Source of the DNA: Sphingomonadales bacterium
GTDB taxonomy: Bacteria; Pseudomonadota; Alphaproteobacteria; Sphingomonadales; Sphingomonadaceae
NCBI GenBank assembly: GCA_027486415.1
Contig: JAIXPC010000012.1
Span: forward strand, 1-63,209
Length of the DNA stretch: 63,209 nucleotides
Reading direction: 5' to 3'
Of the stretch, positions 10,356 to 52,878 are shown piece by piece. Below the pieces are notes generated by a model. The model was not told the origin of the DNA. It made no database searches and was given only the letters and a program-made list of their open reading frames with translations. The position numbers and the translations under genes were made by a program. Each line of letters begins with the position of its first letter. The stretch's first letter is position 1.

Positions 10356-11288
10356 ATGTCGCGTCATGCCAAGGTCCTCATCATCGGTTCCGGCCCCGCC
10401 GGTTACACGGCGGCGGTGTATGCCGCGCGCGCGATGCTGAGCCCCGTGCTGATCCAGGGCCTGCAGCCCGGTGGCCAGCTCACCATCACCACCGAAGTGG
10501 AGAATTGGCCGGGCGAGACCATGGTGATGGGACCGGACCTGATGGTGAAGATGGAAGCCCAGGCCCGCCACGTCGGTGCCGAGATCATCACCGATATCGT
10601 CACGAAGGTTGACCTGTCGCGCCGCCCCTTCGTGCTGGAAACCGACAGCGGCCAGGGCTGGACGGCCGACACGCTGGTGATCGCCACCGGCGCGCAGGCG
10701 CGCTGGCTGGGGCTACCGTCCGAAAGCAAATACCGCGGCTTTGGTGTTTCGGCCTGCGCCACCTGCGATGGTTTCTTCTTCCGCGGCAAGGAGGTTGCCG
10801 TGGTTGGCGGGGGCAATACCGCCGTTGAGGAGGCAATGTTCCTGACCAAATTTGCATCGAAGGTGCACCTGATCCATCGCCGCGACGAACTGCGCGCCGA
10901 CAAGACCAACCAGACCCGCCTGCTGGAAAACCCCAAGGTCGAGATGCATTGGCACGCCGAAGTGACCGATGTGCACGGGCAGGATATGCCGCTGAAGGTC
11001 GAGGCCATCACGCTGACCGACACCCGCGACGGCAGCACGCGCCAGCTCCCCGTTGATGGCCTGTTCATCGCCATCGGGCACGTGCCGGCCACCAGCCTGT
11101 TTACCGGTCAACTGACCATGGACGACGAAGGCTATATCATCACCGCGCCCGACAGCACGGCCACCAGCGTGGCCGGCGTGTTTGCCGCTGGCGACGTGAA
11201 GGACAAGCTGTATCGCCAGGCCGTCACGGCGGCCGGCATGGGCTGCATGGCGGCGCTGGAGGCGGAACGGTTCCTGGCGCACGGGTAA
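10356..11288 (+). CDS. trxB: thioredoxin reductase
   Basis: TrxB transfers electrons from NADPH through FAD and a disulfide to thioredoxin. The 310-residue protein has the FAD motif [15 protein letters not shown] (residues ~11-25), the redox-active CATC at 134-137, the NADPH motif [10 protein letters not shown] (~150) and the C-terminal FAD motif FAAGDVKD (~275). The size and the CATC position fit a low-molecular-weight thioredoxin reductase rather than a ferredoxin-NADP reductase. An AGGAG ribosome site precedes the ATG. The LysR gene follows by 15 bp. Confidence 0.96.
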
Positions 11289-11303: not shown

Positions 11304-12212
11304 GTGCAGGCCAACAATCTCGATTGGGAAAAGCTGCGGCTGTTCGATACGGTTGCCGAGGCCGGCAGCTTCACCGAGGCTGCCCGCCGCCTGCACATGA
11401 GCCAGCCGGCGCTGTCGCGCCAGATCGCGGCGCTGGAAGACAGCCTGGGCGCCAAGCTGTTCCATCGCCACGCCCGCGGCCTTGCCATGACGCACGAGGG
11501 TGAGCAGCTGCGCGCCGCCACCGCCGACATGCACGAGCGCATTGACCGTGCCGCCCAGGCCATCGACGCCAGCCGTGACCGCCCCACTGGCGCCATCCGG
11601 CTGACCACCACCGTGTCCTTCGGCTCGACCTGGCTGGCCCGGCAACTGGGCGATTTCCTCGATCTTTACCCTGATATCAGCGTTCACCTGATGCTGGGCG
11701 ATGCCGATCTTGATCTGGCCAAGCGCGAGGCCGATGTTGCCATCCGTTTTCACCGGCCGTTCCAGAGCGAGCTGATGCAGCGCCCGCTGGCCGGTATCCG
11801 TCACTATCTGGTCGCAAGCCCCGATTATATCGCGCGTCACGGTGAGCCGACCAGCGTTGCCGATCTGGAGAAGCACCGGCTGATTGCCTATGGCGATGCC
11901 GCGCCCGATTATCTGAAGGGCATCAACTGGATCCTGGAACTGGGGCAGGAGGGCAGTCCCCGGGCCGCGGCACTGACCATCAATAACAGTCATGGCGTGC
12001 TGCAGGCTGTGGAAGCTGGGGCGGGCATTGCGGCATTGCCGTCCTATCTCATCAAGTTTTCCGGCAAGGTGAAGGTGGTGCTGCCGGAGCTGGAAGGCCC
12101 GGTGTTTCGCACCTTTTTCACCTACCCGTCGGAACTGCGGCGGTCCCTGCGGATCGCGGCCCTGCGTGATTTCCTGGTCGAACGCATGACCAGCGCAGCC
12201 CTCGATATGTGA
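11304..12212 (+). CDS. LysR-type transcriptional regulator
   Basis: This 302-residue LysR protein has its winged helix-turn-helix in the first 65 residues (FTEAARRLHMSQPALSRQI), followed by an effector-binding periplasmic-binding-protein-like fold. The start is GTG at 11304, preceded by GGGGAAGCGG 15 bp after trxB. LysR proteins usually regulate a divergent neighbour, but here the gene lies downstream of trxB on the same strand, so its target is not evident and may be thioredoxin-linked. A short GCCTG/CAGGC hairpin at 12217-12229 follows the stop. Confidence 0.93.
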   Translation: MQANNLDWEKLRLFDTVAEAGSFTEAARRLHMSQPALSRQIAALEDSLGAKLFHRHARGLAMTHEGEQLRAATADMHERIDRAAQAIDASRDRPTGAIRLTTTVSFGSTWLARQLGDFLDLYPDISVHLMLGDADLDLAKREADVAIRFHRPFQSELMQRPLAGIRHYLVASPDYIARHGEPTSVADLEKHRLIAYGDAAPDYLKGINWILELGQEGSPRAAALTINNSHGVLQAVEAGAGIAALPSYLIKFSGKVKVVLPELEGPVFRTFFTYPSELRRSLRIAALRDFLVERMTSAALDM

Positions 12213-12290
12213 GGCAGCCTGTCGCAGGCATGGGCGCGCACCCCTGAAGTTTTCCTGATTTCAGAGACATAGAGAGGAAAGCCCATAATA

Positions 12291-12313
12291 AGCCATGCAG
12301 TGAATGCATGGCT
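12291..12313. repeat. 8-bp inverted repeat in the LysR-tRNA intergenic region
   Basis: AGCCATGC and GCATGGCT flank a 7-nt loop. No T-run follows on either strand, so it is not an obvious terminator. It lies about 50 bp upstream of the proposed small-RNA start and could be an operator or an RNA hairpin. Confidence 0.4.
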
Positions 12314-12331
12314 GCAACCCGCTATTTCGCA

Positions 12332-12360
12332 CTGCAACATCAGATGCCCCCCGCTTATAT
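12332..12360 (+). promoter_or_regulatory. possible promoter of the small RNA
   Basis: CTGCAA at 12332-12337, a 17-bp spacer and TTATAT at 12355-12360 form a weak sigma-70-like promoter. A transcript starting near 12367 would end at the terminator at 12556. This is inference from spacing and an AT-rich -10 in an otherwise GC-rich region. Confidence 0.35.
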
Positions 12361-12366
12361 CACCCT

Positions 12367-12556
12367 TGTCGCCGCGAAAGCGGTAACGCCGGGCCCGCTG
12401 CAATCCTCCCCTCCCGCAGCCCGCCCGGCTTGATCGGCCAGATCCCTCCTCCCCCCTGTGGACGGCCGATCAGCCCGAACGCGCCTCCCTCCCTCCCCCG
12501 GCGCGCGGGCACAAATCCAAGGGCCGGATGCATCCCCCCGCATCCGGCCCTTTTTT
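12367..12556 (+). ncRNA. candidate small RNA with three CU-rich loops
   Basis: This non-coding stretch folds by eye into five consecutive hairpins. The first has a GNRA tetraloop (CCGC-GAAA-GCGG, 12372-12383). Hairpin two pairs 12388-12401 with 12416-12429 and exposes AATCCTCCCCTCCC. Hairpin three pairs 12431-12439 with 12464-12472 and exposes CCCTCCTCCCCCC. Hairpin four pairs 12480-12485 with 12500-12505 and exposes TCCCTCCCTCCCCC. The last is a perfect 11-bp terminator with T6. Unpaired CCUCC loops can pair with Shine-Dalgarno sequences, as in the alphaproteobacterial CuckooRNA and alpha-r14 families. Family membership is not proven; the architecture is what is seen. Confidence 0.65.
12521..12556 (+). 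terminator. Rho-independent terminator of the small RNA
   Basis: GGGCCGGATGC at 12521-12531 and GCATCCGGCCC at 12540-12550 form a perfect 11-bp stem with an 8-nt C-rich loop, followed by T6 at 12551-12556. It is over 300 bp past the LysR stop, so it more likely ends a separate transcript. Confidence 0.85.
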
Positions 12557-12643
12557 GCGTCCGCGCGCCGCAGGCCTCTGGCATGCGCGCCTTGGCCTTC
12601 CCAAGTTGGCTGTCATCGGCTAACCGCTGTGCTGCTCCGGTTC

Positions 12644-12716
12644 GGGCCTGTAGCTCAACGGTTAGAGCAGGCCGCTCATAACGGCTTGGTTGGGGGTTCG
12701 AATCCCTCCGGGCCTA
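12644..12716 (+). tRNA. tRNA with CAT anticodon, probably tRNA-Ile2 (lysidine type)
   Basis: A full cloverleaf can be drawn: acceptor GGGCCTG/CGGGCCT, D-stem GCTC/GAGC, anticodon stem GGCCG/CGGCT around CTCATAA, a 5-nt variable loop and a T-arm with TTCGAAT. The anticodon is CAT. The D-arm and anticodon arm resemble isoleucine tRNA(k2CAU) more than elongator methionine tRNA, but this separation is by memory of families and is uncertain. The first pair is G1:U72, the discriminator is A73, and CCA is not encoded (ACCGG follows). Confidence 0.85.
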
Positions 12717-12735
12717 CCGGTGTTGAAGGAACGTC

Positions 12736-52582: not shown

Positions 52583-52682
52583 GGGCAGGGGCGGCAAAGA
52601 CCGATCCTGCGCCCCGTCTCATGCACCGCTGGACCCGGCAGGCATGGGGCGACCGCCAATGGCACGAGGGCCACGGACGGAA

Positions 52683-52842
52683 CGGCAGGTCTCCTGACTC
52701 GCGGCTCATAACGCCGGCATCCCGCCTTCCCGGTGTGACCCAGTGGCATGTGGGGTGCAGGCTGGCCGCTCACAGTTGCGGGCACAGCGCCGGATTCGCA
52801 CCGGCTTCCCTATTCTCCCCCGTTTACCGGGGGCACCGTTCA
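52683..52842 (-). promoter_or_regulatory. cobalamin (AdoCbl) riboswitch
   Basis: On the minus strand the conserved blocks appear in order: AACGGTGCC..., GGGAAGCCGGTGCGAATCCG, the ATGCCACTGGG box (52749-52739), GGGAAGGCGGGATG, and GAGTCAGGAGACCTGCC. These are the classical B12-box riboswitch. It sits 160 nt upstream of btuB and should repress uptake when B12 is plentiful. Confidence 0.95.
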
Positions 52843-52849
52843 GCCTTGG

Positions 52850-52878
52850 GGTTACGCCTGTTGCAAACCGCCGGTCAA
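52850..52878 (-). promoter_or_regulatory. btu operon promoter
   Basis: On the minus strand TTGACC (52878-52873), a 17-bp spacer and GTAACC (52855-52850) predict a start at ~52843, exactly the 5' edge of the riboswitch. The -10 is weak. It overlaps the rpmE promoter face to face. Confidence 0.5.

Follow-up and report, generated by a model that had tools for sequence, protein, structure and literature searches.

A probable LysR-activated small RNA with three C/U-rich loops occupies the AbcR position in Sandarakinorhabdus

What is encoded in the 431 bp that separate the stop of a LysR-type regulator gene (position 12212) from a tRNA-Met gene (position 12644) on contig JAIXPC010000012.1 of a Sphingomonadales bacterium, and to which known regulatory system, if any, does it belong? 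The original prediction, made from the letters of a 63,209-bp stretch (the window, by which we mean that stretch at its full length), had already recognized this interval as a gene-free stretch of 431 bp and had placed in it a small RNA (sRNA) with three consecutive C/U-rich loops. Our analysis of the sequence suggests that the interval probably encodes a trans-acting sRNA in the AbcR locus, one that would be activated by the neighboring LysR protein, would resemble ar14 RNAs in its build and would block the Shine-Dalgarno sites of messenger RNAs. Nine records matched the sequence pattern of the 5' end of the RNA, five of them metagenome-assembled genomes and four of them Sandarakinorhabdus, and on account of these named matches the genus was taken as Sandarakinorhabdus, of which 24 genomes were compared.

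Folded with its flanks (12340-12570), the RNA reaches -113.9 kcal/mol (z -9.06), a stability equalled by 0 of 200 shuffled sequences, and it displays, after a 5' hairpin, three stems whose loops are rich in C/U (H1, H2 and H3, numbered from the 5' side) and then an intrinsic terminator with T6, each where the original prediction had put it (Table 1). The stems and the terminator are thus present, but the lengths first given for them, 6-10 bp and 11 bp, give way to those of the table; likewise, the GNRA hairpin is borne out by the GAAA loop of the window but is not a conserved type, given that the loop reads GATA in nine of 11 close relatives and GATA plus one base in the other two. The mean unpaired probability of the loops in the ensemble is 1.0 for H1, 0.74 for H2 and 0.87 for H3, and of these three loops only the second contains an exact CCUCCUCCC. 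Counting both strands, the window has nine C/T runs (at least 10 nt long, with at least 7 C and with CTCC); the plus strand carries three of them, precisely the three loops of the RNA, and the remaining six lie elsewhere on the minus strand.

The structure is under selection, its stem sequences turning over by compensating pairs while the composition of the loops is kept. In an unfitted MAFFT alignment of 12 sequences (11 of them distinct), 93.6% of 562 cells are paired and 23 cells have changed on both sides, compared with a shuffled mean of 7.6; none of 500 shuffles reached 23, and slid controls gave 7 or fewer. Since MAFFT shifted H2 by one base in some relatives, this alignment undercounts H2. 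In an alignment fitted to the covariance model, a procedure that biases toward structure, 95.9% of 565 cells are paired and 29 have changed on both sides (shuffled mean 8.5), with such changes in 2 of the 12 pairs of H1 and in 4 of the 9 pairs of H2, where 84.9% of the cells are paired. A divergent set of 13 sequences, including two near-identical copies from one genome, was aligned and folded by a script of our own, leaving out H1 and H3's inner part, which MAFFT had not aligned; with the structure derived from that same alignment, 93.4% of 452 cells are paired, 18 of 35 pairs have changed on both sides, and 51 cells have done so against a shuffled mean of 14.4 and a maximum of 24 in 200. One further alignment went unused, as it contained reverse-strand false matches. 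The original prediction would have fallen with stems that do not covary and loops that drift freely. It passes this check: the stems covary and the loops stay C/U-rich, with an A breaking the C/U loops in some divergent copies.

A counterpart of the RNA lies behind the same LysR gene in 24 of the 24 genus genomes searched. A blastn search of 60 genomes returned full-length counterparts in 12, all of one genus and with our own included, and in a thirteenth (G013) a 30-base match located elsewhere; the genus covariance model, which matches the window RNA at 173.5 bits, added nine LysR-linked copies; and the RNAs of G006, G007 and G019 were found by reading downstream of LysR, the best covariance matches in G006 and G019 having proved false. 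The search of related genomes and of Rfam that had been proposed with the original prediction produced counterparts in the genus and, in Rfam, a sub-threshold match to ar14. The tRNA-Met gene adjoins the RNA in all 12 blastn-found loci, and a second tRNA scan found it in 11 of 12 genus loci, the exception being G019, whose RNA is also shorter (177 nt) and whose locus holds no tRNA. In G018 the RNA lies about 1 kb away from LysR, and G020 holds a second, near-identical copy with promoter elements in a locus that has no tRNA. Three other blastn matches were rejected as counterparts, one having neither a tRNA nor a matching RNA, one being the reverse strand of a terminator and one a terminator.

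The neighborhood of the RNA is what connects it to a described system. The gene order is trxB-LysR-RNA-tRNA-Met, and the best PDB relative of the LysR protein is 9HH1 (E 1.2e-79; next 2.2e-28), reported to be Agrobacterium LsrB (PMC11975290). In Agrobacterium the reported order is trxB, vtlR (that is, lsrB), abcR1, abcR2, with VtlR activating abcR1 (PMC7486931); because the two orders match, the RNA occupies the AbcR position. As judged from sequence, the trxB-LysR neighborhood and an LsrB-type promoter box, both of which the original prediction had missed, tie the RNA to the AbcR locus. The LysR gene is present in all 24 genus genomes, and ortholog surveys at E 1e-60 found it in 77 of the 118 genomes sampled from the order and in 103 of the 190 sampled from the class; in the order sample our own family supplies three of the matched genomes and at least 20 of the 41 misses. 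Redox sensing, which is reported for Agrobacterium LsrB (PMC11975290), is unlikely here, because this LysR contains no cysteine.

The promoter tells a similar story. NfeR1 of S. meliloti is reported to be activated by LsrB via TGCA-N6-GCAT at -72 to -60 (PMC10746234), and the window counterpart of that box is TGCAGTGAATGCAT, spanning 12296-12309 (roughly -71 to -58 relative to the inferred start). The LsrB-type box ATGC-N7-GCAT occurs once in the window, is perfect in 23 of the 24 genus promoters and keeps 7 of its 8 bases in the remaining one (G010); at 11 of the 24 genus loci a longer published consensus, GCAT-N3-TG-N3-T, accompanies the box. Exactly 33 bp after the start of the box, in all 24 promoters, stands a second element that reads TGCRNYGCA in the other 23 genomes and has CGC in place of TGC in the window copy. 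Box, 33-bp spacing and second element recur before a conserved reading frame of 49 amino acids in three of four genomes searched, our own included (contig C13, near 125506). No Pfam family matches the encoded protein up to E 1, and the promoter suggests that the frame may belong, as a second gene, to the LysR regulon; Agrobacterium VtlR is reported to activate abcR1 and a small hypothetical protein (PMC7486931).

Outside the genus, the box was surveyed at the LysR loci that scored best, 30 from the order and 30 from the class, minus our own locus (29 and 29), a non-random choice. It is found behind LysR in 17 of 29 order loci and 16 of 29 class loci, and is followed by a C/U run 60-330 bp further on in 16 and 15 of them, respectively, whereas 58 control stretches taken upstream, which are largely coding, contain the box in no case and C/U runs in six (11 of 58 for opposite-strand stretches), and in shuffled sequence about 0.6% of loci have the box. 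One family (f5) is mostly without box and C/U run, with the box in 3 of 12 loci, and at one locus (L141) the box is AT-rich, distant from LysR and probably due to chance. The covariance model, for its part, matched 39 of 249 family genomes and 11 of 147 order genomes, mostly by chance on strong terminators or on C/U hairpins behind phasin genes; of 26 family and order loci listed for folding (25 were folded), four were kept after reading of sequence, tRNA and promoter. Three of these belong to related genera, with LysR proteins 66-70% identical, and retain both the box and the C/U-loop RNA; the fourth (L029, genome G084) has box and RNA beside tRNA-Met and no LysR or TrxB match in its 3.1-kb locus, where the RNA may persist without linkage to its regulator.

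These observations lead us to propose that the LsrB/VtlR-type LysR encoded just upstream would bind ATGC-N7-GCAT at about -65 and activate the RNA, as promoter anatomy and rhizobial precedent suggest, probably binding also a second site near -35. The RNA folds into the 5' hairpin, the C/U-loop stems and the terminator, as the covariation shows, and the C/U loops, probably with Hfq (whose gene is found in 24 of 24 genus genomes), would block the translation of several mRNAs by pairing with their Shine-Dalgarno sites. Position, promoter and loop composition are kept while the stem sequences turn over. Precedents for such blocking are the three redundant anti-Shine-Dalgarno (aSD) loops of NfeR1 and the two aSD motifs of AbcR1/2, which are reported to act separately. 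One target may be the regulator itself: among the genes of the window LysR leads the target ranking for loop 1 and comes third for loop 3 and fifth for loop 2, and a complement of one loop, GGGGAGGAGGGG, stands in the LysR start region of some relatives. The predicted pairing of that region, computed with one consensus loop for all genomes and with the start not located in four of them, is strong in six, at -21.9 to -22.6 kcal/mol, and otherwise weak, which hints at an sRNA feedback on its own LysR that is patchy across the genus.

Several results weigh against this proposal. Two S. meliloti papers disagree in their accounts as to whether LsrB controls AbcR1. For the role of global translation regulator that the original prediction put forward, a crude target test on the 39 called genes of the window was negative: it detected no surplus of pairing at gene starts (p 0.20, 0.39 and 0.33), and shuffled loops paired equally well. 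A promoter scan missed the inferred -10, its sole match being located further upstream at 12260-12289; a promoter there, if used, would give a longer RNA. The longer LsrB consensus with its final T fails in the window at the last base and is met in just 8 of the 29 order and 3 of the 29 class outside loci. Finally, a covariation measure that counts further pair types is not above shuffles in either the unfitted or the fitted alignment, and the cut-off of the ar14 model of Rfam is reached in 0 of 24 genus genomes, the best relative scoring 52.9 bits.

The element near -35 also lends itself to a different account, in which the same RNA is mainly under PhaR, TGCRNYGCA being a PhaR operator and polyhydroxybutyrate (PHB) granules titrating PhaR and thereby releasing the RNA, in the manner of S. 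meliloti MmgR, which is reported to be repressed by AniA/PhaR (PMC8401924). The element does resemble the reported PhaR site of S. meliloti phaP1, TTATTGTGCACTGCACAAATT (PMC12542648), and a reported PhaR consensus, TGCRNYGCASMA (PMC6201568); phaR is present in 21 of 24 genus genomes, and TGCRNYGCA sites precede the phasin gene in four of four genomes examined. However, the three genomes in which phaR was not found all carry the element, the window copy reads CGC instead of TGC, and the exact 33-bp distance from the box in 24 of 24 promoters is what two sites of one tetramer would display. The same spacing stands again before the 49-amino-acid frame in three of four genomes, and it was this recurrence in a second promoter that led us to demote PhaR as sole regulator. 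We therefore regard control mainly by PhaR as rather unlikely; on sequence grounds, contact of LysR with both the box and the -35 element is favored, and both proteins may act.

Other alternatives concern the RNA rather than its promoter. The loops might bind a protein or another RNA, as a sponge, in place of ribosome sites, an idea with which the lack of start-site preference in the window target test would agree and for which the Caulobacter sponge CrfA, reported to pair with CCUCCC-type sRNAs (PMC12559287), offers a parallel; yet the loops hold CUCC or CUCCC, motifs that the related NfeR1 and AbcR are reported to use on mRNAs, and we consider such a role improbable. Hardly credible, in our view, is the notion that there is no RNA gene at all but a GC-rich spacer or the leader of a tRNA transcript: the 66% GC content of the window and the tRNA close downstream would suit it, but the covariation, the conserved promoter geometry, a terminator that precedes the tRNA and the second G020 copy without a tRNA in its locus all argue the other way.

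Table 1. Features of the locus, in window coordinates
Feature	Position	Strand	Description	Basis
Small RNA gene	12367..12557	+	about 191 nt, with the start inferred from the alignment and the place of the -10	covariance model match, folding, covariation
5' hairpin	12368..12387	+	GAAA loop	folding; pairs counted
H1	12388..12429	+	stem 7+5 bp; C/U-rich loop 12402-12415, AATCCTCCCCTCCC	folding
H2	12431..12472	+	9 bp plus weak inner part; C/T run 12443-12457	folding
H3	12473..12510	+	stem 5+6 bp; C/U-rich loop 12486-12499, TCCCTCCCTCCCCC	folding
Intrinsic terminator	12519..12556	+	T6; hairpin 12519-12552, 13 pairs	terminator scan; pairs counted
LsrB-type box	12295..12309	+	ATGC-N7-GCAT, ATGCAGTGAATGCAT; about -72 to -59 from inferred start	
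Second element	12328..12336	+	CGCACTGCA; centred near -35; putative second LysR site or PhaR operator	
Inferred -10	12355..12361	+	TTATATC (relatives GTAGATA and similar)	promoter alignment
trxB	10356..11288	+	thioredoxin reductase	TIGR01292, 397.7 vs cut-off 343.45 bits
LysR-type regulator	11304..12212	+	LsrB/VtlR-like; inferred RNA activator	Pfam HTH_1 and LysR_substrate
tRNA-Met (CAT)	12644..12718	+	conserved downstream neighbor	ARAGORN

A LysR-activated sRNA in this position would mean that free-living sphingomonads, too, have the LsrB/VtlR-sRNA pair, and the promoter box would carry the pair on into further families of the Alphaproteobacteria. In the literature consulted, LsrB/VtlR-AbcR control is known from rhizobia and their relatives; that trxB-vtlR is conserved throughout the class is in published work (PMC7486931), and our literature search found no description of the RNA beyond that group. 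Such a case would also mean that an sRNA can be traced by its promoter and its place after its sequence has diverged, and it would make a common origin of the alphaproteobacterial aSD sRNAs directly testable. A broader picture, which we advance tentatively as possible rather than probable, is that the place behind trxB-LsrB has housed aSD sRNAs since ancient times across the Alphaproteobacteria. Promoter box, position and C/U motifs would have been kept while stems, length and loop number diverged past recognition, the separately filed families ar14, ar15/AbcR, the SorX-like RNAs and the window RNA being forms of one regulator-plus-sRNA module, possibly with feedback on LysR.

Two observations lie apart from this locus. 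At eight loci in the family's other genera, a hairpin with a C/U loop, together with a terminator, begins 18-31 nt behind a gene; the gene before the hairpin ends phasin-like in eight of nine loci checked, with Phasin_2 in all eight scanned, and these hairpins are possibly aSD sRNAs derived from the 3' untranslated regions of storage-granule genes. The window also contains a cobalamin riboswitch at 52667-52855 on the minus strand (125.5 bits).

Among known sRNAs, ar14 (Rfam RF02344) is the only Rfam family clearly matched, at 49.5 bits and hence below its cut-off of 58.8, with a fit that covers H2, H3 and the terminator; the kinship with alpha-r14 put forward in the original prediction survives as the closest, if weak and sub-threshold, resemblance. 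Additional ar14 matches (L019-L022) look like terminators. In ar14/NfeR1, three aSD hairpins are reported to act redundantly, with stems that vary freely (PMC10746234), so that three tandem loops are not the exception they had been taken for. Both RNAs have three hairpins with aSD-type loops, varying stems and, some 65 bp ahead of the start (here an inferred one), an LsrB-type box. NfeR1 is reported to have 115 nt (PMC8844928), as opposed to the 191 nt of the window RNA. The latter has an extra 5' hairpin and a separate terminator and, unlike ar14, restricts its exact motif to loop 2. The NfeR1 gene lies in a different locus.

With AbcR1 and AbcR2 (ar15) the RNA shares aSD motifs, an LsrB-type promoter and the position directly downstream of trxB and the LsrB/VtlR gene, as reported for that pair (PMC7486931). 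Whereas AbcR is a tandem pair, the window has a single RNA beside LysR, and whereas AbcR carries two aSD motifs, one of them in the 5' hairpin loop, the window RNA has GAAA in its 5' loop and C/U-rich runs in three others; the three long loops and the GAAA or GATA 5' loop set it and its relatives apart, and no ar15-named family is among the 11 Rfam matches of the window up to E 10. SorX (RF02784) and suhB/MmgR (RF00519) are short CCUCCC sRNAs, and the window RNA matches neither up to E 10. Among the RNAs behind orthologous LysR genes, SorX is the match, under its cut-off, at 10 of the 17 class loci scanned, and the RNAs at the outside LysR loci look like shorter aSD RNAs, with SorX or mmgR-like scores that are also below cut-off. 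CcsR/CuckooRNA (Rfam CcsR1, RF02791) has the CCUCCUCCC motif in common, but the link to CuckooRNA first suggested for this RNA finds no CcsR match in the window up to E 10. The most fitting label for the RNA is that of an AbcR-locus, ar14-like aSD sRNA of Sandarakinorhabdus; by the comparisons made here, it is a strict member of neither family. It is not a new kind of system but a cousin of the known rhizobial regulators.
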